Assembly: GCF_000744285.1 (NCBI RefSeq) | Contig: NZ_JQLQ01000002.1 | Span: forward strand, 372,001 to 436,000 | Reading direction: 5' to 3' | Source: Carnobacterium pleistocenium FTR1 | GTDB taxonomy: Bacteria > Bacillota > Bacilli > Lactobacillales > Carnobacteriaceae | Length of the DNA: 64,000 nucleotides | Notes under the pieces: model-generated | Told to the model about the DNA's origin: nothing | The model's database searches: none | The model's input: only the letters and a program-made list of their open reading frames with translations | Shown: piece after piece, positions 15,127 to 42,628 of the stretch | How the letters are laid out: each line of letters opens with the position of its first letter | Numbering within the stretch: position 1 is the stretch's first letter | Position numbers and translations under genes: made by a program

Positions 15127-15168
15127 TTGATTCCAATCAATTTTTTAATTAGCAGGACTACCTATACT
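15127..15168 (+). promoter_or_regulatory. FNR-type class II promoter of the metal island
   Basis: The palindrome TTGAT-TCCA-ATCAA (15127-15140) is a perfect FNR/FLP box. TATACT (15163-15168) is the -10. The palindrome centre (15133.5) is 29.5 bases before the first base of the -10, the class II activator position, and no -35 hexamer is needed. The same spacing recurs at 15497, 33869, 34179 and 42587. Confidence 0.85.
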
Positions 15169-15199
15169 AAAGATAACAAAGGACAGGAGGAGAACAAGT

Positions 15200-15421
15200 A
15201 TGAGTAAAGCTGTATATCAATTAGAACCGTTAACTTGCCCGTCATGTATCAAAAAAATCGAGACGACCTTAAATAAAACTGACGGTATTGAATCTGCTAA
15301 AGTGATGTTCAACTCTAGCAAAGTAAAAACAGAATTTGACGAATCTAAAATCAAAGTTGAAAAAATTCAAGAGACCATGCAAAAATTGGGTTATCCAGTG
15401 TTGGCATCTAAACAAAACTAA
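15200..15421 (+). CDS. HMA-domain metal carrier (CopZ-like), CPSC
   Basis: A 73-residue single HMA domain. The metal-binding loop is LTCPSCIKK (C13, C16), placed as in CopZ, and the beta-alpha-beta-beta-alpha-beta pattern fits the family length. Such proteins bind Cu(I) or other soft or divalent ions and pass them to P1B ATPases. The ATPase encoded downstream lacks its own HMA domain, so this protein probably serves it in trans (inference). It differs from the middle tandem copy at 34252 at 12 of 73 positions. RBS ggaggag precedes ATG 15200. It is driven by an FNR-type promoter. Confidence 0.88.
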   Translation: MSKAVYQLEPLTCPSCIKKIETTLNKTDGIESAKVMFNSSKVKTEFDESKIKVEKIQETMQKLGYPVLASKQN

Positions 15422-15496
15422 CGTAAGAAAAAATTCTGATCTTTAAGAGTTTGAATCTTTCTTTTATCCAACAAAAATAAAATAGTTTAGCCATTC

Positions 15497-15538
15497 TTGA
15501 CCTTAGTCAATTTTTAATCGCTTCTTGAGCGGTAATCT
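15497..15538 (+). promoter_or_regulatory. FNR-like class II promoter, variant box
   Basis: TTGAC-CTTA-GTCAA (15497-15510) is a perfect palindrome differing symmetrically from TTGAT-N4-ATCAA at one base per half. TAATCT (15533-15538) lies at the same 29.5-base spacing from the palindrome centre. It should drive the second HMA gene and the ATPase. Confidence 0.7.
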
Positions 15539-15577
15539 AAAGATACAAAGAAACAAGGAAAGGAAGGAGAAAGTTAT

Positions 15578-15799
15578 ATGACTAAAATCTTATTTCAAAT
15601 TGACACGCTCGATTGTACCGGCTGTGCAAAGAAAATAGAAAATCAGGTCAATGAATTAAATGGAATCGAGTCTGTAAAAGTCTTTCCTCAACTTGGGAAG
15701 ATACGTACAACATTCGATAACAAAAAAGTAACGATCCAACAAATTGAAGAAGCCATTTTACAGGCAGGTTATTCTGTCTATTCAAAAGAAACTGCATGA
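15578..15799 (+). CDS. HMA-domain metal carrier, CTGC variant
   Basis: A 73-residue HMA domain with LDCTGCAKK (C13, C16). It is clearly diverged from the CPSC protein upstream, so the two are not a recent duplication. RBS ggaaggag before ATG 15578; the ATPase gene starts 20 bases after its stop, so these two form one unit. It probably acts as the detached N-terminal metal-binding domain of that ATPase, or senses the ion; both are inferences from family and neighbourhood. Confidence 0.87.
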   Translation: MTKILFQIDTLDCTGCAKKIENQVNELNGIESVKVFPQLGKIRTTFDNKKVTIQQIEEAILQAGYSVYSKETA

Positions 15800-15819
15800 A
15801 AAAATAAGGAGGAAGAAAA

Positions 15820-17727
15820 ATGATTGCACATATCAATCACCATAAAAATCACATTACTGCTCTAGCAGGTATTTTAATCATTAGTGGATTCATTTCCGGG
15901 TTTATAGGAAGCGGAGAACTAAAGGATATTGCCTTAATTAGCGCAACCATTATTGCCAGTATTCCTATTTTTATTAAAGCTATTCAAGCTTTACGGATGA
16001 AAGCTTTCAGTATTGATCTGTTAGTTAGTATCGCTGTTTTAGGTGCTTTATACATCGGAGAATACACAGAATCATCTGTTGTAACATTCTTGTTCTTATT
16101 TGGAGATTATCTAGAAATGAGAACATTAGAAAAAACACGTTCATCACTAAGAGAATTGGTAGATATGGCACCTCAAGAAGCTACCGTTTTGCGAGCTGAT
16201 GGTAAAACAGAGATCATTCCAGTTGAAGACGTTAAAGAAGGCGACCGTGTGGTCATTCATCCAGGTGGAAAAATCCCTGTTGACGGTAAAATCGTTACCG
16301 GTAAGGCTTCTATTAATGAAGCAGCTATTACTGGTGAATCCGTTCCAGCTTCAAAGGCTACCAATGATAAAGTATTCAGTGGAACGATTTTAGACAATGG
16401 CTACATCGAAATGATCGCTGAAAGAGTTGGTGACGATACGACATTTGCTAAAATTATTGAACTTGTTGAAGAAGCGCAAGAATCAAAATCTAAAGCAGAG
16501 AAATTTTTGGATAAATTTGCTAACATCTACACACCAGCTGTAGTTATTCTATCGATTATTGTGTATCTCTTTACCAGAGATCTGCATTTAGCCATCACTT
16601 TCTTAGTAATCGCATGTCCAGGCGCTTTAGTCATTGGAGCTCCAGTTTCAAATGTTGCAGGTATTGGAAATGGTGCGAAGAACGGTGTTCTGATCAAAGG
16701 TGGAGAAATCATGGATAAATTCTCTAAAGTAGATACATTAGTTTTTGATAAAACGGGGACCTTAACAAAAGGAAAACCAGAAGTAACTGATATTCATGTA
16801 TTTAACAAAGCTGATAAAGATACTTTATTGGGACTTGTTGCTAAAGCAGAAACGATTTCTGAACACCATTTAGGACAAACAATAGTAAAAGCAGCCCAAA
16901 ACCGTGATATGGATCTTGCTTCAATGGAATTATCTGATGGAGAAGCAATCAAAGGAAACGGAATCAAGGCTAATGTGAACAACCATAAAATTGTTGCTGG
17001 AAACCGTAAATTAATGAAAAACGAAAATATCTTATTATCATCTGCTGCTGAACATTATGCAGTGACGCGTGAAAAAGCCGGAAACTCCGCTATCTTCATC
17101 GCTGTTGACGGAAATATTGATGGCATCATTTCCATTGCTGATCAGATTCGTGACGACGCTAAAAGAGCCTTAACTCAAATGAGAGGAAACGGCATCAAAA
17201 AAATCGTTATGTTGACTGGTGACAATAAACATACTGCTGAAGCAGTCGCTACTGAACTTGGATTAGATGAATTTCATGCTGAATTATTGCCAGAAGATAA
17301 AGTAGAATACGTGAAAAAATTGAAAAGTTCGGGTCACATCGTTGCTATGGCAGGAGATGGAATCAATGATGCCCCTGCAATTGCAACAGCTGATATTGGT
17401 TTAGCAATGGGTGAAGGTGGAACAGATATCTCAATGGAAACAGCAGATGTTGTTTTAATGGCAGACAAATTAATGCAATTCTCTCATGCCTACTCATTGG
17501 CTAAAGTAACGACTAGAAATATGAAGCAAAATATCTTTATTGCAGTCGGTGTTGTGGTTATCTTACTAACAGGAGTTTTAATGGGAAGTGTTCATTTAGC
17601 TTCAGGTATGTTCATTCATGAGGCCAGCGTATTGATCGTTATTTTAAATGCTATGCGTTTGATTCGCTTCAACCGTAAAAATATGCAGCCTGATAAAGAA
17701 CCAGCTGCAGTCCCTGTAAAGGCTTGA
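15820..17727 (+). CDS. P1B-type heavy-metal ATPase with CPG motif and no HMA domain
   Basis: A 635-residue P-type ATPase. The sequence has the actuator motif ITGESVP, phosphorylation motif DKTGTLT (D310) and hinge GDGINDAP. Eight membrane helices are expected. Three features are unusual. The intramembrane motif is C266-P267-G268 (ACPGALVIGAP) rather than CPC, CPH, SPC or TPC. The nucleotide-domain HP is replaced by HH (SEHHLG). There is no N-terminal HMA domain; two are encoded as separate proteins just upstream. The last helix has FIHEASVL, like the HE of zinc/cadmium pumps. Metal specificity cannot be assigned; the Dps encoded downstream suggests iron or another divalent ion. RBS aaggagg, ATG 15820. 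Confidence 0.9.
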   Translation: MIAHINHHKNHITALAGILIISGFISGFIGSGELKDIALISATIIASIPIFIKAIQALRMKAFSIDLLVSIAVLGALYIGEYTESSVVTFLFLFGDYLEMRTLEKTRSSLRELVDMAPQEATVLRADGKTEIIPVEDVKEGDRVVIHPGGKIPVDGKIVTGKASINEAAITGESVPASKATNDKVFSGTILDNGYIEMIAERVGDDTTFAKIIELVEEAQESKSKAEKFLDKFANIYTPAVVILSIIVYLFTRDLHLAITFLVIACPGALVIGAPVSNVAGIGNGAKNGVLIKGGEIMDKFSKVDTLVFDKTGTLTKGKPEVTDIHVFNKADKDTLLGLVAKAETISEHHLGQTIVKAAQNRDMDLASMELSDGEAIKGNGIKANVNNHKIVAGNRKLMKNENILLSSAAEHYAVTREKAGNSAIFIAVDGNIDGIISIADQIRDDAKRALTQMRGNGIKKIVMLTGDNKHTAEAVATELGLDEFHAELLPEDKVEYVKKLKSSGHIVAMAGDGINDAPAIATADIGLAMGEGGTDISMETADVVLMADKLMQFSHAYSLAKVTTRNMKQNIFIAVGVVVILLTGVLMGSVHLASGMFIHEASVLIVILNAMRLIRFNRKNMQPDKEPAAVPVKA

Positions 17728-17841
17728 TCAAAAGGGGAAATAAAGTATACAAAGAGGTCATCATCAAAGTATTTAAGGGGGTGATCAGCTAAAAAGGTAA
17801 CCATATTAATTGAAACAAAAAATTATTAGGAGGAATTAAAA

Positions 17842-18429
17842 ATGACTGAAGAACACACACACGAATCACAACAACATGGAGAACACGAACACAAAGAACA
17901 AACAACAGAAGAACTGCACCAAGTGGAGATGACTCAAGAAAAACACGATCACCACAACCCAACGGCTGCCGCTATGACGAATCACATTATTTCAAATCAA
18001 GCTTTCTTACATGTGAAATTACACCAATATCATTGGTATGTTAAAGGTCCACATTTCTTTACGCTACATGCAAAATTTGAAGAATTATACGATGAAAATA
18101 GTAAGTATTATGACGAAATTGCAGAACGATTGATTGCCTCAGGTGATAAACCAGCATCAACGAATGAAGAGTATACGAAATATAGTTTGGTCGCTGAATC
18201 GCCTAAAGATAAATATTTATCAGGTGAAGAAATGGTCGAAAAATTAGTAGATGATTATCGCATGACGAGAGATTTAACAATGAGAACAATTCTTTTGGCA
18301 CAAAAAGAAGGCGACAACGGGCTAGAAGATGTTATGATCGGGTACAAAAAATACTTGGATAAAACAATTTGGATGTTGCAAGCTTTTCTAGGTAAATCAG
18401 CTCTTGAAGGGGAAGAAGACGATGAATAA
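17842..18429 (+). CDS. dps: Dps-family ferritin-like protein with His-rich N-terminus
   Basis: A 195-residue protein. Residues 45-190 match Dps (LHQYHWYVKGPHFFTLHAKF, EELYDE, DEIAERLIASGDKP), with the inter-subunit ferroxidase ligands His, Asp and Glu. Dps dodecamers oxidise and store iron and protect DNA. The first 38 residues form an extra acidic tail with nine histidines, not usual in Dps; metal binding by this tail is inference. RBS taggagg, ATG 17842. It follows the ATPase by 114 bases without a terminator, so it probably belongs to the FNR-driven unit. Its end overlaps the next gene's start. Confidence 0.92.
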   Translation: MTEEHTHESQQHGEHEHKEQTTEELHQVEMTQEKHDHHNPTAAAMTNHIISNQAFLHVKLHQYHWYVKGPHFFTLHAKFEELYDENSKYYDEIAERLIASGDKPASTNEEYTKYSLVAESPKDKYLSGEEMVEKLVDDYRMTRDLTMRTILLAQKEGDNGLEDVMIGYKKYLDKTIWMLQAFLGKSALEGEEDDE

Positions 18430-19165
18430 ACCCTTCTTGATAACAAGTGCAGCCACTTTGTCAGCAGTAGGAGTCATGTTTTTCGCACCTGTTACAGCGA
18501 GTGCGCATTGTGACACTATGGACGGTCCGGTTATTGGGGACGCGCAAACAGCTATTAAAGAAAACAATATCAACTATATCGCTAAATGGGTAACACCTGA
18601 AGAAGAATCCGAATTAACAGACATTTTTAACCAAACAATGGAAGTAAGGGATGATAGCCCAGAAGCGCAAGAACTAGCTGATCAATACTTATTTGAAAAT
18701 CTAGTTCGAGTTCATCGTGCTGGAGAAGGAGCACCTTATAGTGGAGTAAAACCAGAAGGAACTCCGATGGCTGAAGAAATAGTGGCAGCGGATGAAAGTA
18801 TTAAAGTAGGGAACTTAGATCCATTGAAAGATTTAGTAGAATCTGAAAAAATACCAGAATTAGAAGAGAGCTTGAATGATGTATTGGCAACAAAAGATTT
18901 TGATACGGATGACCTAGATGCAGGTAGAGAATACGTCATGAACTATGTGACATTCACCCACATGGCAGAAGGTGAGGAATTAGAAGGAGGACATGTTGAA
19001 GAAAGTCATGAAGCAGCAGAACAAGAAGAAGTAGAAGAAGAAGAAGCTGTTGAAGTCGATGAGACCGAAGTCGAAAAAGCAACAATAAATTGGCTTTCTT
19101 GGGGACTAGCAGGTCTATTCTTCATCACCACCATTATTGGATTCAGTAAAAAAAAAGCAAAATAA
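18422..19165 (+). CDS. DUF6448 family secreted protein with membrane anchor
   Basis: A 247-residue protein. Residues 1-32 form a signal peptide ending APVTASA; the mature chain would begin HCDTMDGPV. Residues 33-180 match the DUF6448 pattern (AHCDTMDGPVI, NYIAKWVTPEEE, VRVHRAGEGAPYSG). A very acidic linker (about 185-218) leads to a C-terminal membrane segment and KKKAK, with no LPxTG. ATG 18422 overlaps the dps stop by 8 bases and uses aaggggaag as RBS; a TTG at 18404 is less likely. No biochemical role is known to me. Coupling to dps and the metal ATPase suggests an extracellular metal-binding or redox role; the exposed His-Cys after cleavage fits that. Confidence 0.82.
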   Translation: MNKPFLITSAATLSAVGVMFFAPVTASAHCDTMDGPVIGDAQTAIKENNINYIAKWVTPEEESELTDIFNQTMEVRDDSPEAQELADQYLFENLVRVHRAGEGAPYSGVKPEGTPMAEEIVAADESIKVGNLDPLKDLVESEKIPELEESLNDVLATKDFDTDDLDAGREYVMNYVTFTHMAEGEELEGGHVEESHEAAEQEEVEEEEAVEVDETEVEKATINWLSWGLAGLFFITTIIGFSKKKAK

Positions 19166-19173
19166 GTAAAAAT

Positions 19174-19216
19174 AATACCCATCTCGAGTAACTTAATCGA
19201 GAAGGGTATTTATTTA
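19174..19216 (+). terminator. intrinsic terminator after DUF6448 gene
   Basis: AATACCC-A-TCTCGA (19174-19187) pairs with TCGAGA-A-GGGTATT (to 19210) with one A-A mismatch, then a T-rich tail. It separates the metal island from the signal peptidase gene. Confidence 0.82.
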
Positions 19217-19236
19217 AGTAAGAACAGGGGAAAATT

Positions 19237-19740
19237 ATGAAAAAAAACTTGAAACAGTATGTTATTTTTATCATACTTACCGTAATAATCTATTTATTCA
19301 TAAGAGGATTTCTATTTTTTATGATAGTCGTTCCTAGTCCCTCTATGTACCCGACCATTGATATCGGGGATCGGATAGTTACAACCCGCATTCACCAAGT
19401 AGAGAAAATCAATAGGGGAGACATTCTTGTGTTTGATTCCCAAGAGCTAGATGAAACACTCGTTAAAAGAGTGATTGGTCTTCCAAACGATCGGATCGAA
19501 ATTTTTGAGAATGGGGAAGTATGGGTGAATGGTTCGATACTAAATGAAGAATATGTTGCGTTCAATGGCACCGAATCTGGGTTATACACGGTACCTGAAA
19601 ATCATTATTTCTTTTTAGGAGATTACCGAATCCATTCGCTGGATAGCCGAAAATGGGATGATCCATATATTTCAGAAGAAAGTCTTCTCGGAAAAGCCCA
19701 ATGGATTCTTACTCCATGGGAGCGATCAGGAGAATTATAA
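19237..19740 (+). CDS. type I signal peptidase
   Basis: A 167-residue S26 signal peptidase with one N-terminal membrane segment (about 9-32). The catalytic serine is S36 in VPSPSMYPT and the general-base lysine is K77 in LVKRVIGLP. Box E reads GDYRIHSLDSRKW. It cleaves secretory signal peptides outside the membrane. Length matches short Gram-positive SipS/SipT types. It sits just after a secreted DUF6448 protein but behind a terminator, so a dedicated link is only possible. A weak AGGGG RBS precedes ATG 19237. Confidence 0.93.
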   Translation: MKKNLKQYVIFIILTVIIYLFIRGFLFFMIVVPSPSMYPTIDIGDRIVTTRIHQVEKINRGDILVFDSQELDETLVKRVIGLPNDRIEIFENGEVWVNGSILNEEYVAFNGTESGLYTVPENHYFFLGDYRIHSLDSRKWDDPYISEESLLGKAQWILTPWERSGEL

Positions 19741-19881
19741 AATGTCAAAATTTAACTAATGCACGAGCTAAATAAGAGATAGAATCAATTTAGGTAAGTC
19801 TAAAAATAAAAAGATAATAGCATAGTTAAATCCATCCTTTCCAAAAATAAAAAATTTGCTCATTTAGAAAGAAGGAAAATC

Positions 19882-20298
19882 ATGAATCAAATTGAAACGT
19901 ATAATGAAATATTAAATGGAAGCAGTTATTTAGCTTTGGCTACATCTGTTGAGGGAAGAGCCAATGTGCGAGTCGTGAATTATTATGAAAATCCGGTTAT
20001 ACCAGGAGTTTTATACATTCGAACAAAAAAAGATAAACAAAAAGTTGCTGAATTCACTGCAAATCCGGTCGTGGCTTTTTCAACTATCATCAAGTCTAAG
20101 TACGAGTATATTCGTGTGCAAAATGCCATTATTGAACAGTGTACAGAACCATTGTCAGAGGAAATAAAAATGGCATTTATAAAACGTGAGCCAAACTTTG
20201 TTGCAAAAAAAGATGGGACTATCTTTTTTGCCATCCATTTCCAATCTGCATCTGTTACAATAAACCCGACTAGTCCATCTTTAACAGTTAAGTTCTAA
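19882..20298 (+). CDS. pyridoxamine 5'-phosphate oxidase-fold protein
   Basis: A 138-residue protein of the FMN-binding split-barrel (PNPOx-like) family: LATSVEGRANVRVVNYYEN, LYIRTKKDKQKVAEF and NPVVAFSTI give the usual strand pattern. Members bind FMN or F420 and reduce or oxidise diverse substrates, so the reaction here is unknown. RBS gaaggaaa precedes ATG 19882. Neighbours give no clear functional clue. Confidence 0.8.
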   Translation: MNQIETYNEILNGSSYLALATSVEGRANVRVVNYYENPVIPGVLYIRTKKDKQKVAEFTANPVVAFSTIIKSKYEYIRVQNAIIEQCTEPLSEEIKMAFIKREPNFVAKKDGTIFFAIHFQSASVTINPTSPSLTVKF

Positions 20299-21126: not shown

Positions 21127-21214
21127 GAATTCGATATCGATAATCATCAATGCTATTGTTATCTTTAAATAAATAAAAATTATTGTGACGACAATGACGG
21201 AAGGAGTGATTTTG

Positions 21215-21502
21215 ATGGAACAAGATTATAAAGTATATGCAAAAGCTTTAAAAGTTTTATCAGATGAAACAAGGCTAAAAATCATGGATTTGTTAGGAGA
21301 TGGTGAATTATGTGCTTGCGATTTATTGAGAGAATTTTCAATCACGCAGCCTACGCTTTCTTACCACATGAAAACCTTGTGTGACAGCGGTTTGGTTGTC
21401 AGCAGAAAAGACGGCAGTATGGTGAAATATACCATCGACCACGAATCTTTAGATGCTTTGAAGGCTTTTTTTAAGCACATGTCTAGTGGGATGCCTGTAT
21501 AA
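21215..21502 (+). CDS. arsR: ArsR-family arsenic-responsive repressor (copy 1)
   Basis: A 95-residue winged-helix repressor. ELCACDLL carries the As(III)-type cysteines C33 and C35 at the start of the DNA-binding helix, followed by the recognition region TQPTLSYHMKTL. The family releases DNA when As(III) or Sb(III) binds. ATG 21215 follows aaggag at good spacing; the longer in-frame start at 21185 lacks an RBS. It is the first gene after the inverted-repeat promoter, so it is probably autoregulated. Confidence 0.92.
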   Translation: MEQDYKVYAKALKVLSDETRLKIMDLLGDGELCACDLLREFSITQPTLSYHMKTLCDSGLVVSRKDGSMVKYTIDHESLDALKAFFKHMSSGMPV

Positions 21503-21523
21503 AAAATATAGGAGATGCAACTA

Positions 21524-22528
21524 ATGGACGCATTTACTTGGCTGAATAATCAGCTATTCAAAATGGTATGGTTAAATGATCTGATGGGCAAGTTGGTTGA
21601 AAATGTTTTTAGCTTAGACCTCAATAGCCGTAGCGGAGCTAGCTTGCAATTTTTCCTTTTTGATACTATAAAAATCTTTATCCTATTATCGGTATTGATT
21701 TTCATGATTTCTTATATACAGAGTTATTTTCCACCAGAACGGACGAAAAATATTTTGGGTCACTTTAGCGGGGTGACAGCTAGTATATTGGCTGCTTTAC
21801 TTGGTACGGTGACGCCTTTTTGCTCTTGCTCCTCAATCCCGTTGTTTATCGGATTTACCGGTTCTGGATTGCCGTTAGCAGTAACGTTTTCCTTCTTGAT
21901 TTCTTCCCCATTAGTTGATTTGGCATCTGTCATCTTGCTGGCAAGTATCTTTAATTGGCGGATTGCCTTTGCTTATGTAATTGTCGGTTTATTTTTGGCG
22001 GTAGTCGGTGGAACCATCATCGGAAAAGCACACTTAGAAGATCAGGTGGCATCTTTTGTTTATGGTAAAAGCAATGGGGATATTCCTGAAGAGAAATTAA
22101 CCAGAAAAGACCGAATTGCTTTTAGTGTAGAACAAGTAAAAGATGTCGTCAAAAAAGTATGGGTTTATATATTAGTGGGTGTTGGAATTGGTGCGGCTAT
22201 TCATAATTGGATACCAGAATCAATTATTACCGCTATTCTAGGTCAAGATAAATGGTACTCCGTATTGGTAGCAGCCATTATTGGTGTACCTATGTATGCA
22301 GACATTTTTGGGACTTTGCCAATCGCGGAAGCACTAGCTGTAAAAGGCGTCGGTTTAGGTACAGTCTTAGCCTTTATGATGAGCGTGACAGCTTTGTCTT
22401 TGCCGTCACTCATCATGCTAAAGCAAGTTGTAAAAACGAAACTATTGGCTGTCTTCTTCTCAGTCGTCGTTTTGGGAATTATCTTGATTGGCTACTTATT
22501 TAATTTCTTTACACCTTTCTTTATGTAA
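21524..22528 (+). CDS. ArsP-like permease (DUF318 family)
   Basis: A 334-residue membrane protein with about eight helices. TPFCSCSSIPLF, with its paired cysteines, is the hallmark of the ArsP_1/DUF318 permease family; some members export methylated trivalent arsenicals. The second half repeats the fold (MYADIFGTLPIAEAL). Start ATG 21524 is 9 bases after AGGAG; the in-frame ATG at 21515 directly abuts that RBS. It is 21 bases after arsR and precedes a CxxC protein, so the trio forms one operon. Substrate in this organism is inferred from context. Confidence 0.88.
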   Translation: MDAFTWLNNQLFKMVWLNDLMGKLVENVFSLDLNSRSGASLQFFLFDTIKIFILLSVLIFMISYIQSYFPPERTKNILGHFSGVTASILAALLGTVTPFCSCSSIPLFIGFTGSGLPLAVTFSFLISSPLVDLASVILLASIFNWRIAFAYVIVGLFLAVVGGTIIGKAHLEDQVASFVYGKSNGDIPEEKLTRKDRIAFSVEQVKDVVKKVWVYILVGVGIGAAIHNWIPESIITAILGQDKWYSVLVAAIIGVPMYADIFGTLPIAEALAVKGVGLGTVLAFMMSVTALSLPSLIMLKQVVKTKLLAVFFSVVVLGIILIGYLFNFFTPFFM

Positions 22529-22561
22529 AAAATACAACTATTAACTAGGAGGAATATTATC

Positions 22562-22798
22562 ATGGAAATCAAAATTTTAGGTTCAGGTTGTAAAAATTGT
22601 GTGAAATTGGCTGGAAATACAGAAGAAGCGTTGAAGACTTTAGGTATGGAAGCAACTATCACGAAAGTGACCGATTTGCAAGAAATAGTAGCTTACGGAG
22701 TTATGAGGACACCCGCACTTGTCATCGATGAGAAAGTTGTTTCTTACGGAAAAGTAACTAAACCGGAAGAAATCGTAGAGATAGTAAAAAATAGATAA
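22562..22798 (+). CDS. small thioredoxin-fold protein (GCKNC)
   Basis: A 78-residue thioredoxin-like protein of the MTH895/redox-active disulfide type: GSGCKNCVKL active site, cis-proline loop in MRTPALVID. These are frequently paired with DUF318 permeases (family knowledge). It probably supplies or relays thiols for the permease's cysteines or for an arsenical; this is inference. RBS taggagg before ATG 22562. Confidence 0.88.
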   Translation: MEIKILGSGCKNCVKLAGNTEEALKTLGMEATITKVTDLQEIVAYGVMRTPALVIDEKVVSYGKVTKPEEIVEIVKNR

Positions 22799-22805
22799 AG
22801 TAAAA

Positions 22806-33868: not shown

Positions 33869-33910
33869 TTGATTGAGATCAATTTTTTAATTAGCAGTGC
33901 CGACTATACT
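33869..33910 (+). promoter_or_regulatory. FNR-type class II promoter, tandem unit 1
   Basis: TTGAT-TGAG-ATCAA (33869-33882) and TATACT (33905-33910); centre-to--10 distance 29.5 bases. Confidence 0.87.
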
Positions 33911-33941: not shown

Positions 33942-34163
33942 ATGAGTAAAGCCGTATATCAATTAGAACCGTTAACTTGTCCATCTTGTATCAAGAAGAT
34001 CGAGACTACTTTAAATAAAACTGAGGGCATCGAAACGGCTAAAGTGATGTTCAACTCTAGCAAAGTAAAAACAGCATTTGATGAAACAACGATTGATGCT
34101 AGTAAAATCCAAGAAACGATTCAAAAATTAGGTTATCTAGTGTTAAATTCAAAAGTTTCTTAA
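33942..34163 (+). CDS. HMA-domain metal carrier, tandem copy 1
   Basis: A 73-residue CopZ-like HMA domain with CPSC (C13, C16). It differs from copy 2 at one residue, Leu instead of Pro in the C-terminal GYPVL. That proline is kept in the other CPSC copies. Start ATG 33942 follows AGGAGG; an upstream in-frame extension to 33897 lies in the promoter. It is probably another carrier for the HMA-less ATPase encoded 18 kb upstream, since the copies resemble the HMA gene there; that pairing is inference. Confidence 0.88.
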   Translation: MSKAVYQLEPLTCPSCIKKIETTLNKTEGIETAKVMFNSSKVKTAFDETTIDASKIQETIQKLGYLVLNSKVS

Positions 34164-34178: not shown

Positions 34179-34220
34179 TTGATAAAGATCAATTTTTAAA
34201 TTATGAGTACTACTTATACT
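34179..34220 (+). promoter_or_regulatory. FNR-type class II promoter, tandem unit 2
   Basis: TTGAT-AAAG-ATCAA (34179-34192) and TATACT (34215-34220); spacing 29.5 bases, as in unit 1. Confidence 0.87.
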
Positions 34221-34251: not shown

Positions 34252-34473
34252 ATGAGTAAAGCGGTATATCAATTAGAACCATTAACTTGTCCATCTTGTA
34301 TTAAAAAAATCGAAACGACTTTAAATAAAACTGAGGGCATCGAAACGGCTAAGGTGATGTTCAATTCTAGCAAAGTAAAAACAGCATTTGATGAAACAAC
34401 GATTGATGCTAGTAAAATTCAAGAAACGATTCAAAAATTAGGCTATCCAGTATTAAATTCAAAAGTTTCTTAA
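34252..34473 (+). CDS. HMA-domain metal carrier, tandem copy 2
   Basis: A 73-residue CopZ-like HMA domain with CPSC (C13, C16). It differs from the copy at 15200 at 12 positions and from copy 3 at 5, so the triplication is younger than the split from the metal-island gene. RBS AGGAGG. No terminator separates it from copies 1 and 3, so readthrough transcripts across the array are possible. Confidence 0.88.
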   Translation: MSKAVYQLEPLTCPSCIKKIETTLNKTEGIETAKVMFNSSKVKTAFDETTIDASKIQETIQKLGYPVLNSKVS

Positions 34474-34489: not shown

Positions 34490-34530
34490 TTGATGAAATC
34501 AATTTTTGAATTATGAATATCAGTTGTATT
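34490..34530 (+). promoter_or_regulatory. decayed FNR-type promoter, tandem unit 3
   Basis: TTGAT-GAA-ATCAA (34490-34502) has lost one spacer base, giving 13 bases instead of 14, and the -10 aligns with TGTATT (34525-34530) instead of TATACT. Activity should be reduced or lost. Confidence 0.6.
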
Positions 34531-34561: not shown

Positions 34562-34783
34562 ATGAGTAAAGCGGTATACCAATTAGAACCATTAACTTGT
34601 CCATCTTGTATTAAAAAAATCGAAACGACTTTAAACAAAACTGAGGGCATCAAAACGGCTAAGGTAATGTTCAATTCTAGCAAAGTAAAAACAGAATTTG
34701 ATGAAACAACTATTGAAGCTAGTAAAATTCAAGAAACAATTCAAAAATTAGGCTACCCAGTATTATCTGCTAAAGTATCGTAA
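34562..34783 (+). CDS. HMA-domain metal carrier, tandem copy 3
   Basis: A 73-residue HMA domain with CPSC intact. It differs from copy 2 at five positions (EGIKTAK, TEFDE, IEAS and a C-terminal SA in place of NS); TEFDE matches the copy at 15200. RBS AGGAGG, ATG 34562; the frame extends upstream to 34529 without an RBS. Its promoter looks damaged although the coding sequence is intact. A terminator follows. Confidence 0.88.
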   Translation: MSKAVYQLEPLTCPSCIKKIETTLNKTEGIKTAKVMFNSSKVKTEFDETTIEASKIQETIQKLGYPVLSAKVS

Positions 34784-34888: not shown

Positions 34889-35749
34889 ATGGGATTAACA
34901 TTAGGAATTATTGACCCACATGCTATAGAGATAGGTTCGTTTATTATCCATTGGTATGGTGTTATTATTGCTGCAGCAATGTATTTAGCTATTCATTTAA
35001 GTGCAAAAGAGGCAAAGAAAAAAGGACTTAAAGAAGATACAGTTGTCGATATGGCATTATGGGCTATTCCGATTGGCTTTATAGGCGCTCGTCTTTATTA
35101 TGTTTTATTTGAACTAGATTATTATCTACAAAAACCAGCAGAGATACTAGCTATTTGGAATGGTGGAATTGCTATTTATGGAGGGTTGATTGCAGGTGGC
35201 CTCACCTTGTATTGGTACACAAAGAAACATAAAATCTCTTTAGCTTTACTATTAGATGTTTTGGCACCAAATGTTTTATTGGCGCAGTCTATCGGTCGCT
35301 GGGGAAATTTCATGAATCAGGAAGCGCATGGAGGGCCCGTCAACCGTTCGTTTTTAGAAAATCTATATTTACCGGAATTTATCATTGACCAAATGAATAT
35401 TAACGGTACCTACTACTACCCAACATTTTTATACGAGTCTTTATGGAGTCTATTGGGTTTTGTCCTCATTGTTATTTTACGGAATCGTAAGAACGTATTG
35501 CGACAAGGAGAAGTAGCACTAAGTTATGTACTTTGGTATTCGGTAGGGAGATTCTTTATTGAAGGTATGAGAACAGATAGTTTATGGGTCGGCGATTTCA
35601 TGCGTATTTCGCAGGTGTTATCCCTTATCTTGTTTATTGGAGCCATCATTATAGGATATCTTCGCAGACAGGATTACCCTCCAATCCCGTATTATACTAA
35701 TGAAGTAGAGCAGCAAAAAGAAGGAATGAAAGTAAAGCATCAAACGTAA
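34889..35749 (+). CDS. lgt: prolipoprotein diacylglyceryl transferase
   Basis: A 286-residue membrane enzyme that moves diacylglycerol from phosphatidylglycerol to the lipobox cysteine of prolipoproteins. The Lgt signature GRWGNFMNQEAHGG is complete, with IGARLYYVLFE and VGRFFIEGMRTDSLW as further conserved blocks. About seven helices. The N-terminus begins with the usual IDPHAIEIGSFIIHWYG. RBS tggag with ATG 34889. The long hydrophilic C-terminal tail is common in this group. It serves the lipoproteins encoded elsewhere in the window. Confidence 0.96.
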   Translation: MGLTLGIIDPHAIEIGSFIIHWYGVIIAAAMYLAIHLSAKEAKKKGLKEDTVVDMALWAIPIGFIGARLYYVLFELDYYLQKPAEILAIWNGGIAIYGGLIAGGLTLYWYTKKHKISLALLLDVLAPNVLLAQSIGRWGNFMNQEAHGGPVNRSFLENLYLPEFIIDQMNINGTYYYPTFLYESLWSLLGFVLIVILRNRKNVLRQGEVALSYVLWYSVGRFFIEGMRTDSLWVGDFMRISQVLSLILFIGAIIIGYLRRQDYPPIPYYTNEVEQQKEGMKVKHQT

Positions 35750-36330: not shown

Positions 36331-37035
36331 ATGAATAAAAGTAATGCACATCATCACCATACCGATGGGTCACATAAAGCTTGCGTATCTTTAGTTCCAA
36401 TTTTTAATCATTTAGAAGATGAGCAGTTAGATGAAATTATGGCAGCCACGCAATCTGTTTCTTATGAGAAAAATGAACTTATTTACCGTGCTGGAGATGA
36501 ATCGGATTCTCTTTATATCATTAATAAAGGAAAAGTACGGATCTACAGATTATCAGAATCTGGAAAAGAACAGTTGGTTCGCATTCTGAATCCTGGTGAT
36601 TTTACTGGTGAAATGGCATTGTTTTCTGAAGCCACACACGAAGCTTATGCTGAAGCTGTAGTAAATACAAAAATCTGTTTAATTAAACGCGCAGAGCTAC
36701 AAGAATTCTTGTTGAAATATCCTTCTATTTCTTTAAAAGTGATTGCTGAATTTTCAAGTCGCCTTGAGGCCTCTGAAAAGCAAACTACCCGTTTTTCAAC
36801 AGAAAAAGTTGAAACGCGTATCGCTTTATATTTAGCTGAAAGTCTCGATGCTGAAGATGCTGGAACGGTTGAACTTACGTTAGCGATGAGTAAAAAAGAT
36901 TTGGCCTCTTATTTAGGAACCACTCCTGAAACAATCAGTCGTAAATTTAATGATTTAGAGGAACGCGGTTACATCAAACAAATTACTCATAAACGGATTA
37001 AAATAATTGATTTGGATGGATTGTTATTAGTTTAA
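36331..37035 (+). CDS. FNR/CRP-family regulator (FLP-like), copy 1
   Basis: A 234-residue regulator with a cyclic-nucleotide-type beta-barrel (about 25-140), dimer helix and winged helix (KKDLASYLGTTPETISRKF). The recognition helix has E-x-x-S-R (ETISR), the FNR signature for TTGAT half-sites. It has only two cysteines, C18 (HKACVSLVPIF) and C116, so it cannot hold the four-cysteine Fe-S cluster of E. coli FNR. An FLP-like dithiol switch is plausible. The N-terminus has HHHH plus another histidine before C18. RBS ttggagg. Probably controls the TTGAT-N4-ATCAA promoters in this window (inference). Confidence 0.9.
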   Translation: MNKSNAHHHHTDGSHKACVSLVPIFNHLEDEQLDEIMAATQSVSYEKNELIYRAGDESDSLYIINKGKVRIYRLSESGKEQLVRILNPGDFTGEMALFSEATHEAYAEAVVNTKICLIKRAELQEFLLKYPSISLKVIAEFSSRLEASEKQTTRFSTEKVETRIALYLAESLDAEDAGTVELTLAMSKKDLASYLGTTPETISRKFNDLEERGYIKQITHKRIKIIDLDGLLLV

Positions 37036-37170: not shown

Positions 37171-37920
37171 TTACTTGGTAAAAACATAAGCCGCAAGCCA
37201 AGCTGTAATGGGTATAACCAGAATTGCACCAGTCCCGATACAAAAAATCGAAATAACTTCCGAACTAAATACTTTGGAATTGATTACTTCACCGAGTGAG
37301 TAGGATAGGTCGTTAAACCATAATAACAAGGCTAAATATCCGCCAATAAAGGCAAAATACAGCGTGTTTGTAGTTGTACTTAAAATATCTTTCCCTATAT
37401 TCATGCCAGATTTGAAAAGATTGGATCGACTTAGTTTAGGATTGTGTACCCATATTTCATTCATAGCAGAAGCAATAGAAATAGCAGTATCTGTAATGGC
37501 ACCAATAGATCCCATAATGATCGTACTAATGGCAATCTCAAGAAAATCTATTCCGATATAAAGGTTGAAGAAATTAAATTCTTCAATCTCTTCTATTCCA
37601 AACCCCTGTATGTTTGCTCTCTTAACGATGAAAAAGATGACAATTACTAAAAAAAGTAATGTGATCATGGTAGAAATGAAAGCGATCATTGATTTAAGGT
37701 TGATTGTATTTATATAAAATAAATTAATGCAACTAATAATGATGCAGGCAAGCAAGGTTAAGAAAATTGGATTGCTTACTCCTTTAGCCATCAATAATAT
37801 GGTCAAAAGTATAATACCAAAGTTTAAAAAAAGGGCAATAAACGATTTTGTGCCTTTTTCCCCACTAATGATCTTCATTAGTACAAATAAAATAATTGAT
37901 AAAAGAATTAATACGTTCAT
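37171..37920 (-). CDS. YibE/F-like membrane protein (second of pair)
   Basis: A 249-residue protein with six or seven helices, matching the C-terminal membrane part of the YibE/F family (MGSIGAITDTAISIASAMNE, GMNIGKDILSTTTNTLYFAFIGGYLALL). Its start overlaps the upstream gene's stop by four bases (ATGA), so the pair is translationally coupled. Function is unknown; transport is assumed for the family. Confidence 0.85.
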   Translation of the reverse strand: MNVLILLSIILFVLMKIISGEKGTKSFIALFLNFGIILLTILLMAKGVSNPIFLTLLACIIISCINLFYINTINLKSMIAFISTMITLLFLVIVIFFIVKRANIQGFGIEEIEEFNFFNLYIGIDFLEIAISTIIMGSIGAITDTAISIASAMNEIWVHNPKLSRSNLFKSGMNIGKDILSTTTNTLYFAFIGGYLALLLWFNDLSYSLGEVINSKVFSSEVISIFCIGTGAILVIPITAWLAAYVFTK

Positions 37921-39029
37921 TTAGCTACGCTCCTTCTACGAATAAAATAAAGCGTCGTTTGGATACTTATTGGAATGGTCAGCACGATCCCGATGCTTCC
38001 AACAAGTGCTCTAGTCAATTCTAAGGATAAATTCATTGATAAAGTGTACCCCCATGTTGAACCATTTTTTAAATAGAGCAAAATCATAGGAATACCGCCA
38101 CTAACATAGGCAAAGAATAACACATTCGTCATTGTTCCCATGATATCTTTACCTATTTCATTTCCTGATACTTTTAAATCTTTTAAGGAAATAGCATTGT
38201 TTTTATCATATAGCTCATATAGTGAAGAAGTTATGGTAATTGCAATATCCATTACCGCACCTAGAGAACCAATTAGAATACTGGCTAAGAATACCTTTTG
38301 CGGGGATCTTGTGATAAATGCCATTTCTTCATATCTTAGACCTTGTTCTGCTGTCAGCCACATTGTAAGATAAGCTATGAGAAGAGCAGAAAAGGTGCCC
38401 ATTATGGTTGCCAAGATAGCAACAAGAGTTTTCTCGTTTTTCCCATTAACTAATAATAAAGATGTTACGGTGAAAAAAATGGCTAACCCGCTAGAGATAA
38501 GCAATAAACTTGCTCGTTCTGAATTTATGTAACTGTTTAAGGCAAGGTACAATACAAGTATATTGATTGCTAAACTAATTAATGAAAACAAGCCACTCTT
38601 TTTCCCAACAATTAAGACAGTTAGTATAAATAACCAGGCTGCGGCTAAAACATATTTGTCTCGTTTGGGTCCATCGATAGTACCGGTTAATTGAACGCTT
38701 TCGCTGCTTTGAATGGCAACAAATAGATTGTCGCCAACTTGATAACGGTGATCAAAAGCTCCAGATGAAGAGTAAGTATTTTCTAGCGAAATCAATTGAT
38801 CTTTTTGTGCTCCATTCTTAATTTTGCCAACTAAAGTTTGAACAAATAGCTCATCCTCGTTTATTGTTTCAGCAACACTCTTTTTTTCTTTAAGGGTCAC
38901 TGTTACAACTTCTGCTATCGGTTGATCGTATAGGTTAAAGTTATTTTGAATAAATAACATAGATGCAACAATACATAACAGGCCAAAGCCATATAATAAA
39001 ACTCTTTTTCTCTTCTCGTTACTGTTCAA
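37917..39029 (-). CDS. YibE/F-like membrane protein (first of pair), TTG start
   Basis: A 370-residue protein: N-terminal membrane anchor (about 8-27), an extracytoplasmic beta-rich domain (30-120, YQVGDNLFVAIQSSES), then a run of helices with the YibE/F motif SLGAVMDIAITITSSLYEL and GKDIMGTMTNVLFFAYVSGG. The best start is TTG at 39027-39029, seven bases after GGAGG; upstream in-frame codons overlap that RBS. It shares the duplicated DI(M/L)(G/S)T motif with the second gene. No function assigned. Confidence 0.85.
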   Translation of the reverse strand: MNSNEKRKRVLLYGFGLLCIVASMLFIQNNFNLYDQPIAEVVTVTLKEKKSVAETINEDELFVQTLVGKIKNGAQKDQLISLENTYSSSGAFDHRYQVGDNLFVAIQSSESVQLTGTIDGPKRDKYVLAAAWLFILTVLIVGKKSGLFSLISLAINILVLYLALNSYINSERASLLLISSGLAIFFTVTSLLLVNGKNEKTLVAILATIMGTFSALLIAYLTMWLTAEQGLRYEEMAFITRSPQKVFLASILIGSLGAVMDIAITITSSLYELYDKNNAISLKDLKVSGNEIGKDIMGTMTNVLFFAYVSGGIPMILLYLKNGSTWGYTLSMNLSLELTRALVGSIGIVLTIPISIQTTLYFIRRRSVAK

Positions 39030-39159
39030 CTCATTACCTCCATTACTCAACTGAATACACTAAATCAGCATGTTTACTATAACATATATTTTTTGACAAG
39101 TTGATTAGGCTTAGATTTCTAAACTCAAATGCGCTGAAAAAAGTATTAGGAGGGAAAAA

Positions 39160-40350
39160 ATGAATGAATCTATAAAAAATATTCTTTTTGAAAGAATGAA
39201 TGCAAAACAAGACCGTATGATTAAAATACGTCGTCAGTTGCATGAAAACCCTGAATTGTCTTTTCAAGAAGAAAAAACGGCAGCGTATATTGCTGACTTT
39301 TATTCAGATAAAGACTGTGATGTGCGTACAAACGTAGGTGGACGAGGGATAGTCGTAACAATCAATTCTGGTAAACCGGGGAAAACAATTGCGATTCGGG
39401 CTGACTTTGATGCATTGCCAATTCAAGAAGAATCTGGTCTAGCATTCCAATCGAAAAATCCGGGAGTAATGCATGCTTGTGGTCATGATGCACATACAGC
39501 ATACATGCTGATTTTAGCTGAAACTTTGATTGAAATAAAAGCTTCATTGGCAGGGAAAATTGTTGTTTTACATCAACATGCTGAAGAAATGCCTCCAGGC
39601 GGAGCAATACAGATGATTCAAGATCACGCATTAGATGGCGTGGACACTGTTTTTGGTATTCATGTGATGTCTCAAATGGAAACAGGTAAACTATTTTATC
39701 GTCCTGGAAACATTCAAACTGGACGTGCAAATTTCCACATTAAAATCCAAGGGGTCGGAGGACACGGTTCTTCTCCACATAAAGCAAATGATGCAATTGT
39801 AGCTGCAAGTTATTTTGTTGTAGCAACGCAATCAATAGTGAGCCGTCGCTTAAATCCATTTGATGTGGGTTCAATTACAATCGGAAACTTTGATGGCCGT
39901 GGATCTTTCAACATTATCAAAGACTCAGTTCTCCTAGAAGGTGACGTACGTTCAATGTCTGAAGAAGTTCGTGCAATCATCGAAAAAGAAATTCGGGCTA
40001 AATTAGACGGTATAGCAGCTATGTTTGATGTTACTTATGAATTGAAATATGAAAATGATTACCCTGTTTTATATAACGATTCTGATCTGACAGAAGAGAC
40101 AATCAGTAAATTGAAACGAACGGCGATTCCTGAATTAAAAGGAATTGAAATGTGTGATGCACAACCCCCTTCAGAAGATTTCGCTTACTATGCAAAAGAA
40201 CGTCCAAGTATGTTTTTTTATGTTGGTGCTGCTCCTGAAGAAGGCGAAGCTTATCCGCACCACCATCCTAAATTTAACATCAGTGAATCAAGTTTGATTG
40301 TTGCTGCCAAAACAATGGGTTCGATTGTAGTGGACTATCTAATAGGATAA
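39160..40350 (+). CDS. M20-family amidohydrolase / aminoacylase
   Basis: A 396-residue metallopeptidase-fold amidohydrolase of the M20D type (N-acyl or IAA-amino acid hydrolase-like). Visible features are MHACGHDAHTAYML (metal-site Cys and His), HQHAEEMPPGGA (metal-site Glu), IHVMSQMETGK, and HHHPKFNISE at the C-terminal metal ligand. It removes N-acyl groups from amino acids or peptides; the exact substrate is unknown. RBS taggaggg, ATG 39160. It begins a run of three same-strand genes, with an acetyltransferase 96 bases downstream. Confidence 0.92.
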   Translation: MNESIKNILFERMNAKQDRMIKIRRQLHENPELSFQEEKTAAYIADFYSDKDCDVRTNVGGRGIVVTINSGKPGKTIAIRADFDALPIQEESGLAFQSKNPGVMHACGHDAHTAYMLILAETLIEIKASLAGKIVVLHQHAEEMPPGGAIQMIQDHALDGVDTVFGIHVMSQMETGKLFYRPGNIQTGRANFHIKIQGVGGHGSSPHKANDAIVAASYFVVATQSIVSRRLNPFDVGSITIGNFDGRGSFNIIKDSVLLEGDVRSMSEEVRAIIEKEIRAKLDGIAAMFDVTYELKYENDYPVLYNDSDLTEETISKLKRTAIPELKGIEMCDAQPPSEDFAYYAKERPSMFFYVGAAPEEGEAYPHHHPKFNISESSLIVAAKTMGSIVVDYLIG

Positions 40351-40446
40351 AAAGAACTTTTAAGTAAAGTTAGCAAAGTATTTGGAGTATATGAATTATT
40401 CAGCATCATGTGAAATGAAAAAAATTAGCAAAAGGAGAGATTTAAG

Positions 40447-41097
40447 ATGTCAGAAAAAGAGAGAATGATAGCAGGTCGACTGTACCGTGCACAGGGAGAA
40501 GAATTAAGAGCTATAAGACAAAAAGGACAACAATTGATTCGATTATTTAATACTACTACTGAAGAGGAAAAACCGTACCGTACGAAATTGTTAATGGAAA
40601 TCTTCGGTAAGGTATCAGGTAAAATCTACATTGAACCAACTTTACGGATAGACTATGGGCAAAATATTACCATCGGAGACAATTTTTATGCTAACTTTGA
40701 TTGTGTAATGATAGATGTTGCTCCAATTACGATTGGAGACAACGTTATGTTTGGACCGCGAGTATGCCTTTATACGGCAGGCCATCCAATTGATCCGACA
40801 GTGCGCACTAATGGATTGGAATTCGGTACATCAATTACGATTGGGAATAATGTTTGGATTGGTGGAAGTGCCGTAGTGAATCCTGGTGTTACCATAGGAG
40901 ACAATGCTATTATCGGATCTGGATCAGTGGTCACTAAAGATATTCCGGCTAATACGATTGCAGTTGGGAATCCGTGTCGCGTTATTCGAGACATCACCCA
41001 AGCGGATAAAAAAAATTGGGAAGAAAAGCAAATAGCTTATTGGGCAGAAGTTGCTATTGAGCAAAATGCTGAAATTCAAGGAGGGACTATTGTATGA
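40447..41097 (+). CDS. maltose/galactoside O-acetyltransferase family protein
   Basis: A 216-residue left-handed beta-helix acetyltransferase. An N-terminal Mac domain (MIAGRLYRAQGEEL) precedes hexapeptide repeats (ITIGDNFYANFDCVMIDVAPITIGDNV is typical). The catalytic histidine is in YTAGHPIDP. It uses acetyl-CoA to acetylate sugars. RBS aaaggaga, ATG 40447. The stop overlaps the next gene's start (ATGA), so they are coupled. Confidence 0.92.
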   Translation: MSEKERMIAGRLYRAQGEELRAIRQKGQQLIRLFNTTTEEEKPYRTKLLMEIFGKVSGKIYIEPTLRIDYGQNITIGDNFYANFDCVMIDVAPITIGDNVMFGPRVCLYTAGHPIDPTVRTNGLEFGTSITIGNNVWIGGSAVVNPGVTIGDNAIIGSGSVVTKDIPANTIAVGNPCRVIRDITQADKKNWEEKQIAYWAEVAIEQNAEIQGGTIV

Positions 41098-41477
41098 AAA
41101 TTTCACATGTAGCATTATGGTCTAAGGATATTGAGCAGTTACGTCATTTTTATGAAACCTACTTTAACGCACAAGCGGGAGAACGTTATGAAAATACGAA
41201 TAAAGGATTTGCTAGTTATTTTTTAACGTTTCCTGGATCAGAAGCGAAATTAGAATTGATGCAGCAGTCTGTAATTACTTACCAACCAGAAGAAACACCA
41301 CTAGGATGGGCACATTTAGCCATTAGTGTTGGAAGTGAAAAGAAAGTTGATAACTTAACGACTGTCATTACAGAAGATGGGCACACGATTATCGGTCAGC
41401 CTCGTTGGACTGGAGATGGGTATTACGAAAGTGTTGTAGCCGATCCAGAAGGTAATTGGATAGAAATTACGATTTAA
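41094..41477 (+). CDS. glyoxalase/VOC-family protein
   Basis: A 127-residue VOC superfamily protein. ISHVALWSKDIEQLRHFYETYF gives the first metal histidine, and GWAHLAISVGS and DPEGNWIEI (with metal Glu) give the others. Similar to lactoylglutathione-lyase-like proteins, but reaction unassigned. It overlaps the acetyltransferase by four bases. Confidence 0.9.
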   Translation: MKISHVALWSKDIEQLRHFYETYFNAQAGERYENTNKGFASYFLTFPGSEAKLELMQQSVITYQPEETPLGWAHLAISVGSEKKVDNLTTVITEDGHTIIGQPRWTGDGYYESVVADPEGNWIEITI

Positions 41478-41790
41478 AAAGAAAAAATTGTGGTATAAGT
41501 TCTAAACTCTTTGTTTATCCAATTATTAATTCTAAAAGTAGCCTCGTGGGTAGAATTTGAGACGGTTATACGGCTCTACACAGGCAAACTTGTTATTCCA
41601 GAAGTCCAGAAGGAAGAAATTTCTTTTAAAACACCAATTCTATTTTTGAATAATCGAAATACATAACAAAAAAGAGTCTGTTAACCAGCTTCCTGATAAA
41701 CAGACTCTTTTTAATTGTTGCTAATTATGCTTTAGTTTTTCTTTTTTTATTGTTTGGTCCACTTCTAAATTAAAATAAAGAATAGTCGTA
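41478..41790. other. intergenic DNA with a bidirectional terminator
   Basis: No gene. A hairpin, AAAAAGAGTCTGTT (about 41669-41682) with AAACAGACTCTTTTT (to 41714) and A/T tails on both sides, can terminate the VOC gene on plus and the regulator on minus. Confidence 0.8.
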
Positions 41791-42489
41791 TTATGAAAAA
41801 TTTAATAATTTAATTTTTCCATATGAAATTTCTTCAATAATTTTTTCTTTTTCTAATCGGGCGAATTCTCGGCTTAATGATTCAGAGGTGGTTCCTAAAT
41901 AAGAAGCTAAGTCTTTTTTAGCCATCTTTAATTCAACAATCGGTTCTGTTTCTTTAGAGTCAATTAAACTAATCAAAAAATGCAATAATCGATCTCTAAC
42001 AGTTTCGGTAGTAGCCCAAGCGGTCTGCTGCTCAGAAATTGCCAATCTTTTTGCGATCGTAGCTAACATTTCAACTGATATAGCGGGATATTTTAGAAGC
42101 AACTCACGAAAATCCGAGTGCTTAATGGCGCAAACGAAACAATCGGTTAATGCTTCTGAAAACGCCTCATAAATACCTTCTTTAAATAAAGCTAATTCTC
42201 CAGTAAATTCTCCTTGAGTTACAATACGTATCAGCTGTTCTTTACCTGTATCAGCTAATCGATATATTCGGGTCTTGCCACTTTTTAGTACATAAAGGGA
42301 GTCAGCAACTTGTCCAGGGCGGTAAAGCGTTTCGCCTCGAAGAAAGTGTTTGTGTTGGATTAATGGATGTATTTTTTTCTTTTGTTCGTCTGTAAGTGAT
42401 TGAAATAAGGGAATAGCATCTATGCAATGATGTTCTGTATTTCCGCATATAAACGTCTGCTGTTCAGACTTTACATATTTTTTTTTCAT
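41791..42489 (-). CDS. FNR/CRP-family regulator, copy 2
   Basis: A 232-residue regulator with the same architecture as the copy at 36331. The recognition helix TSESLSREF keeps E-x-x-S-R. It has four cysteines, C15 and C22 (FICGNTEHHC) and C117 and C120 (DCFVC), unlike copy 1 with two. Four could support a metal or Fe-S cluster or two disulfides. RBS gaggagat, ATG 42487-42489. It is divergent from the acyl-CoA dehydrogenase operon, whose promoter carries a perfect FNR box about 100 bases away. Confidence 0.9.
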   Translation of the reverse strand: MKKKYVKSEQQTFICGNTEHHCIDAIPLFQSLTDEQKKKIHPLIQHKHFLRGETLYRPGQVADSLYVLKSGKTRIYRLADTGKEQLIRIVTQGEFTGELALFKEGIYEAFSEALTDCFVCAIKHSDFRELLLKYPAISVEMLATIAKRLAISEQQTAWATTETVRDRLLHFLISLIDSKETEPIVELKMAKKDLASYLGTTSESLSREFARLEKEKIIEEISYGKIKLLNFS

Positions 42490-42586
42490 CTCATGATCTC
42501 CTCAATGAATCTTCACTTTACATCTATAGTGTACCAGTAATTTATATATTAGAAAAGAGGTCATTATCTTTATAAACTAATTGTAC

Positions 42587-42628
42587 TTGATTTAAATCAA
42601 GTATATCCCAAAAAAAACAAGGTATAGT
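42587..42628 (+). promoter_or_regulatory. FNR-type class II promoter of the acyl-CoA dehydrogenase operon
   Basis: TTGAT-TTAA-ATCAA (42587-42600), a full palindrome including its centre, and TATAGT (42623-42628). Centre-to--10 distance 29.5 bases, identical to the HMA promoters. Confidence 0.88.

Follow-up and report, generated by a model that had tools for sequence, protein, structure and literature searches.

In Escherichia coli, FNR acts at class II promoters in which a TTGAT-N4-ATCAA box is centred at -41.5, and its E-x-x-S-R motif is linked to reading of the TTGA half-site; the FLP proteins are known for a disulphide switch. Here we describe promoters of this appearance in a 64,000-nucleotide stretch of the Carnobacterium pleistocenium FTR1 genome (contig NZ_JQLQ01000002.1, positions 372,001 to 436,000 of the forward strand), which we call the window and in which positions are counted from its first base. 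The window has a GC content of 35%, in a host genome of 2.66 Mb. Five of its promoters share one spacing between an FLP box and a -10 hexamer, and it encodes two Crp/Fnr-type regulators, FNR1 and FNR2.

FNR-like proteins of Gram-positive bacteria often have two cysteines, according to passages of one account (PMC5039431), which also hold that the Flp of Lactobacillus casei is possibly active without a cluster and that cluster binding through non-cysteine residues has been described for Lactococcus lactis FlpA. In the Lactobacillales, the FlpA regulon is listed by Ravcheev et al. (2013, PMC3616900) among the metal-homeostasis regulons that were expanded by comparative genomics.

All five promoters of the window lie on the plus strand. 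Four have boxes of the form TTGAT-N4-ATCAA: TTGATTCCAATCAA at 15127 with the -10 hexamer TATACT at 15163-15168 (promoter 15127-15168), TTGATTGAGATCAA at 33869 with TATACT at 33905-33910 (33869-33910), TTGATAAAGATCAA at 34179 with TATACT at 34215-34220 (34179-34220), and TTGATTTAAATCAA at 42587 with TATAGT at 42623-42628 (42587-42628). The other, TTGACCTTAGTCAA at 15497, is of the form TTGAC-N4-GTCAA and is followed by a weak hexamer, TAATCT, at 15533-15538 (15497-15538). Box and hexamer are always separated by 22 bases, and at all five sites the hexamer begins 36 bases past the first base of the box, or 29.5 bases beyond its centre. The positions and hexamers given in the first-pass annotation of this DNA were all correct. 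TAATCT agrees with TATAAT at only three of six places, and the -10 hexamer in orthologues of this promoter reads TAATAT or TAAGAT; our survey of loci required agreement at four of six places and therefore missed the site. The exact string TTGATN4ATCAA occurs five times in the window, against 0.35 expected, and none of 100 shuffled versions reached five. The fifth occurrence (53238) lies inside a 439-amino-acid open reading frame (ORF) and has TAAATA at the -10 distance.

We consider it very probable that all five sites act as class II promoters of the FNR/FLP kind and depend on an activator, as had been proposed, and the assignment is supported by a gap that is kept throughout the order, by co-occurrence with FNR1, by two regulators in the window with the E-x-x-S-R helix, and by the want of a good -35 element. 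In such an arrangement a Crp/Fnr-type dimer would sit next to RNA polymerase on a TTGAY-N4-RTCAA box whose centre is near -41.5, and the bound dimer would compensate for the absent -35 element. We infer from these features where transcription would start, and that a bound regulator would activate the five promoters under redox control.

The first-pass annotation had argued that identical spacing five times over was most unlikely to arise by chance. The spacing stands, but the independence of the sites does not. Promoter and gene together have been duplicated at 15127, 33869 and 34179, with 78-92% identity across 295 alignment columns, and the four copies c1 to c4 of a gene for an HMA metal-binding protein are 75-92% identical when promoter and gene are taken together. 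Three of the five sites trace to a single HMA-gene promoter, so that the five cannot be counted as independent of one another; once the alignment showed the duplication, we no longer used the tandem HMA sites as separate evidence. The 15497 promoter, which precedes a second HMA gene, is 47-51% identical to the c1 to c4 copies, and the 42587 promoter is not a copy of the HMA promoters at all; the window thus holds about three independent cases of the layout. The argument from chance is replaced by a comparison with other genomes, given below. That the shared spacing is merely a product of gene duplication, which would hold for three of the five sites, is extremely improbable as the whole explanation: the second HMA gene, the acyl-CoA dehydrogenase-like gene acd and the gene for an FMN-binding protein have promoters that are not copies, the gap of 22 recurs in other genera, and duplication does not guarantee the layout, as its loss from the fourth copy shows. 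In that copy (TTGATGAAATCAA, 34490-34530, plus strand) the box has become TTGAT-N3-ATCAA, with a spacer of 3, and TGTATT stands in the -10 place. The automated box survey detected nothing ahead of copy c4, and the double change serves as a natural, built-in negative control. Copy c4 may be transcribed by read-through from the two intact upstream promoters; no terminator-like sites were found between 33700 and 37200.

Our statements about the whole host genome are based on pattern searches. In a genome-wide search for the layout, which the first-pass annotation had suggested, TTGAY-N4-RTCAA followed by 22 bases and TANNNT matched seven times on both strands, against one match for a backward-pattern control. 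Six of the seven matches lie outside ORFs and ahead of genes. The seven comprise the five window sites, a reverse-strand match at 33869 with the poor hexamer TAGTGT, which we take to be the box there read by chance in the other direction, and a sixth promoter at C2:197958. This last site, 174 kb before the window, is upstream of a gene for a 361-amino-acid protein with FMN-binding and PAS domains, alongside which lies a divergent ApbE gene. The exact box TTGATN4ATCAA alone occurs 30 times in the genome (seven for the backward pattern), with 25 occurrences within ORFs of at least 213 codons and one within a 102-amino-acid ORF; these 26 were ruled out as promoters by their location. Outside ORFs the genome has just four, those of the window promoters at 15127, 33869, 34179 and 42587. 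Separately, an identical 42-base match with one mismatch is found on the main contig (G000:C2:1408735) and on a small contig (C3:4505), and is perhaps a repeated element.

The layout extends well beyond this strain, recurring in many related bacteria and on their plasmids, for the most part ahead of genes for metal handling. The six genomes of the genus that we searched gave 5-11 matches each (some of them not promoters) against 0-2 in the control, and with the hexamer restricted to TATANT, 15 of 18 genomes of the family had matches, with no control matches. When the gap between box and -10 was left free to vary from 8 to 36 in these 18 genomes, it was exactly 22 in 73 of 106 matches (49 of 82 distinct strings), every other gap was represented at most four times, and the backward control gave 15 matches. 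Among 95 distinct gap-22 sites the hexamer is TATACT in 60, and the best match to TTGACA at a spacing of 16-18 reaches four of six places in two sites and at most three of six in the remaining 93.

Across 118 genomes of the order, the TATANT version of the layout is present in 40, and control matches total six. Its presence follows that of an FNR1 relative (E value threshold 1e-25): 37 genomes have both, three the layout only, 11 the relative only and 67 neither (Fisher test, 2.5e-17). Outside the family the corresponding numbers are 26, 2, 11 and 64 (1.4e-13). All 29 genomes whose FNR1 relative is at least 47% identical have the layout, a limit that was chosen after seeing the data. One of the genomes with the layout only (G010, locus L230, 3447-4018), in which a search for an FNR1 relative found none, has a box followed by the first 45 codons of an HMA gene that run into the last part of an ATPase gene, a junction whose sequence reads as a deletion scar. 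It is very unlikely that the sites belong to another regulator, or are repressor operators, with the FNR proteins as bystanders. The absence of the exact layout from 11 of the 48 genomes that have an FNR1 relative speaks for such a reading, but none of those 11 has a relative above 45% identity; moreover, the constant position of the -41.5 type and the missing -35 element fit activation, and on plasmids from several genera the layout and the regulator gene move together.

The plasmid evidence was gathered through the regulator rather than through the box. An FNR1 relative (E value 1e-20) is encoded in 474 of 72,556 plasmid records, mostly from Enterococcus, Lactococcus, Leuconostoc and Listeria. 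We fetched nine stretches, two among the best matches and seven for variety of host; several of these cassettes are near-identical, and they do not amount to nine independent cases. In all nine the regulator is accompanied by an HMA gene, an ATPase gene and a Dps-type gene, the last bearing no more than the label DNA-binding protein in one of them; the prolipoprotein diacylglyceryl transferase gene lgt is annotated in four, and fetB iron-export genes lie nearby in three. Both the HMA gene and the cassette ATPase gene have a perfect box at gap 22 ahead of them in every case (18 of 18), and for one HMA gene (L223) an alternative hexamer at gap 27 fits too. Dps has its own box in five of the nine, and the regulator gene has a gap-22 box in four (one with a mismatch) and a gap-21 box in one; no box was found in these stretches before the second HMA gene, the second ATPase gene, lgt, VIT1 or fetA/fetB. 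One Lactococcus plasmid carries consecutive ATPase, HMA, Dps-type and regulator genes, and the layout is found upstream of the first two. The local regulon envisaged by the first-pass annotation holds only in part: a sixth site lies outside the window, and the FNR1 part is an order-wide cassette that is often plasmid-borne. Cassettes with four to five such promoters (L100, L106, G008, G014, G015) have identical or near-identical boxes and spacers across genera, which suggests recent transfer. In one of these genomes the same box set appears three times at steps of 73,123 bases (G015:C1 802591, 875714 and 948837), either a tandem amplification or an assembly artefact.

Both regulators are encoded in the window, FNR1 on the plus strand (36331-37035) and FNR2 on the minus strand (41791-42489), and in both a cNMP-binding-type sensor domain and a Crp helix-turn-helix are recognised, PF00027, PF13545 and PF00325 scoring above cut-off. 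A Crp helix model run against the whole genome found two proteins, these same two. The E-x-x-S-R recognition helix that had been read from the translations is indeed present, as ETISR in FNR1 and ESLSR in FNR2. Their cysteines are another matter. FNR1 has a His-rich start with Cys18 and Cys116, and this pattern of one N-terminal and one central cysteine is kept in 50 of 51 FNR1-type sequences, the exception being truncated at its start; some of these sequences carry further cysteines, and most have the His-rich start. FNR2 has Cys15, Cys22, Cys117 and Cys120, and its C-x6-C and C-x2-C motifs are kept in eight of nine relatives of at least 66% identity (a tenth, at 39%, was excluded); the four cysteines may hold a cluster of the [4Fe-4S] type. 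We infer that FNR1 and FNR2 differ in what they sense.

The boxes likewise fall into two classes. Perfect boxes before acd, FMN_bind and PNPOx-like genes have a central TA in 15 of 16 distinct cases and read exactly TTGATTTAAATCAA in 12, whereas those before HMA, ATPase, Dps, regulator, DUF6448 and 98-amino-acid-protein genes have a central TA in 10 of 89 and never read TTGATTTAAATCAA (0 of 89). Gaps of 19 and 17 recorded at some acd and PNPOx sites reflect our script's preference for hexamers nearer to TATAAT, and in direct searches the gap is 22 for acd in G011 and G013, with TATACT, and for the two PNPOx sites, with TACAAT. FNR2 itself is present in eight of the 18 family genomes. All eight have acd and none of the ten others does, but acd is the divergent neighbour of FNR2 and this co-occurrence is therefore linkage. 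The unlinked FMN_bind gene is present in six of the eight FNR2 genomes and in none of the ten others (Fisher test, 0.0015); five of those six belong to one genus, and shared ancestry therefore explains part of the association.

Because box cores, gene content and cysteines all differ, these comparisons suggest two sub-regulons, one of metal genes under FNR1 and one of flavin and acyl-CoA genes under FNR2. With moderate confidence, we assign the HMA and P-type ATPase promoters, with Dps and DUF6448 genes behind them, to FNR1, and acd-etfBA together with the unlinked FMN-binding flavoprotein to FNR2. The single regulon previously proposed, joining metal carriers to acyl-CoA dehydrogenase and EtfBA, is doubtful in this light, as the acd and flavin boxes form a distinct class that goes with FNR2. 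It is nevertheless possible, if on balance unlikely, that both regulators read all boxes alike and that the TTGATTTAAATCAA class is due to chance or shared ancestry. TTGAY/RTCAA and the gap are kept in all boxes, and TTGATTTAGATCAA stands before the 98-amino-acid-protein gene of a genome outside the family (G069, locus L173) in which only an FNR1-type relative was found. On the other side, within the family a central TA is found in 14 of 14 boxes of the acd/flavin class and in two of 41 others, and is common to unlinked promoters; the sole exception among the 16 (L181) sits in a genome (G070) in which no relative turned up other than an FNR1-like one at 50% identity; and in the family the flavoprotein and acd are found only together with FNR2.

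A number of results weigh against two separate sub-regulons, or against the class II reading in general. The E-x-x-S-R helix common to both regulators, which also favours a single regulon, makes cross-binding likely. A single regulon is also favoured by the FMN_bind box of the host genome, TTGATCTAGGTCAA, which has the metal-type right half GTCAA. The FMN_bind box in G002 is weaker, with one mismatch and a gap of 21. Searches of the host genome found no box ahead of the PNPOx-like gene (locus L114) or of FNR1's own gene, on which ground we rejected autoregulation of FNR1 in this genome, and a protein query brought up a third, distant Crp-like protein, 28% identical to FNR2. Orthologues and copies of a single mobile cassette make up many of the sites, so that the p-values above overstate independence, and most surveyed loci were fetched by the box pattern and are biased to gap 22; the free-gap test and the plasmid records fetched through the regulator are without that bias. 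In the survey of loci a perfect box with a -10 precedes 38 of 47 HMA rows and 26 of 36 ATPase rows, falling to 8 of 16 for Dps, 13 of 49 for FNR1, 9 of 21 for the 98-amino-acid protein and 3 of 5 for PNPOx; several of the rows without a box are genes located inside operons. The 98-amino-acid protein (L096, L098, L099, L103, L131), often found behind such a promoter, has no Pfam match at 0.01.

The two sub-regulons could be taken one step further, to a push-pull scheme in which two paralogous regulators of different redox chemistry use one promoter geometry at -41.5 and different box cores. The two-cysteine, His-rich FNR1 would drive the mobile metal or iron-defence cassette when oxidised or metal-loaded, and the four-cysteine FNR2 would drive flavin-based electron sinks (acyl-CoA dehydrogenase/Etf and the FMN-binding protein) when reduced. 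We offer this scheme as speculation and think it rather improbable.

The genes behind the boxes are all on the plus strand. The first promoter is followed by HMA copy c1 (15200-15421; 73 amino acids with CPSC; PF00403, 1.6e-15), and the second by the other HMA protein, also of 73 amino acids and with CTGC (15578-15799), and by a heavy-metal P-type ATPase of 635 amino acids (15820-17727) with CPG in transmembrane segment 6 and HEA in segment 8. A Dps-type ferritin-like protein (17842-18429) and a DUF6448 protein of uncertain start codon (18404-19165) come next. These two had been counted as members of the regulon; neither has its own box here, and they would depend on read-through from the upstream promoters. 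Further on are copies c2 (33942-34163; the ORF is listed from 33897 and the ATG at 33942 is taken as start), c3 (34252-34473) and c4 (34562-34783), then lgt (34889-35749), which adjoins the regulator also on four of the nine plasmid records. Beyond the 42587 promoter are acd (42688-43818), which scores under the cut-off of every named NCBIfam model, an EtfB-like subunit (43815-44618), whose label comes from the first-pass annotation and is based on translation and position, and an EtfA-like subunit (44634-45602), also under model cut-offs.

As to the metal, iron is suggested by Dps and by the iron-export genes nearby, and softer metals by the HMA domains. The cassette ATPases have CPG in segment 6 in 47 of 51 pump ORFs or fragments, some genes being counted twice; the other four, with CPH, CPH, CPC and SPC, are additional pumps within the same stretches. 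In the 26 CPG pumps with a complete end, segment 8 has HEA or HEG in 25 and HEL in one. The closest solved structures to the window ATPase are of the ZntA and CopA types. Elsewhere in the window, consecutive genes at 21185-22798 encode a helix-turn-helix protein that is ArsR-like by eye, a permease with weak likeness, below cut-off, to the SO_0444 Cu/Zn efflux family, and a 78-amino-acid CxxC protein, and beside FNR1 on the minus strand (37171-39050) there are two membrane-protein genes, the larger YibE/F-like.

How, then, does the locus compare with described systems? The layout and the E-x-x-S-R helix of E. coli FNR are common to the window's promoters and regulators, and when near-identical chains of FNR structure 5cvr are aligned the central cysteine matches Cys116 of FNR1, but FNR1 lacks the cluster of N-terminal cysteines known from the E. 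coli protein. L. casei FLP and L. lactis FlpA and FlpB are FNR-like proteins of lactic acid bacteria, and the FNR1 type likewise keeps two cysteines; the differences are the His-rich start of FNR1 and the four cysteines of FNR2. FlpS of Streptococcus suis, as presented in passages of PMC5039431, is again FNR-like, with two cysteines, and an oxygen-linked activator, but its known target is the arginine deiminase system. The block of Dps, Crp/Fnr, Lgt, copper chaperone and P-type ATPase genes on Listeria plasmid pLM58 is the same gene cassette as on the plasmids that we fetched, known from passages of an annotation table in which promoters are not mentioned (PMC5663981). A two-class layout did not appear among the titles and abstract openings of the literature searched, a weak negative since subscription literature was little covered. 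With the FlpA regulon the likeness is that metal genes with boxes lie near an Flp-type gene; Carnobacterium is absent from the main text of that study (PMC3616900). The kind of system is thus already known, the FlpA regulon having been placed under lactic acid bacterial metal homeostasis in 2013. To this the present comparisons add a gap that stays fixed from genus to genus, a test of co-occurrence, a connection to the plasmid cassette and the split into two classes. Together they provide a simple signature (TTGAY-N4-RTCAA, 22 bases, TATANT) for locating FLP-type targets in Lactobacillales and on plasmids, connect a metal cassette of wide distribution with its probable regulator, and turn the separation of targets by two FNR-like proteins in one cell into a testable question.

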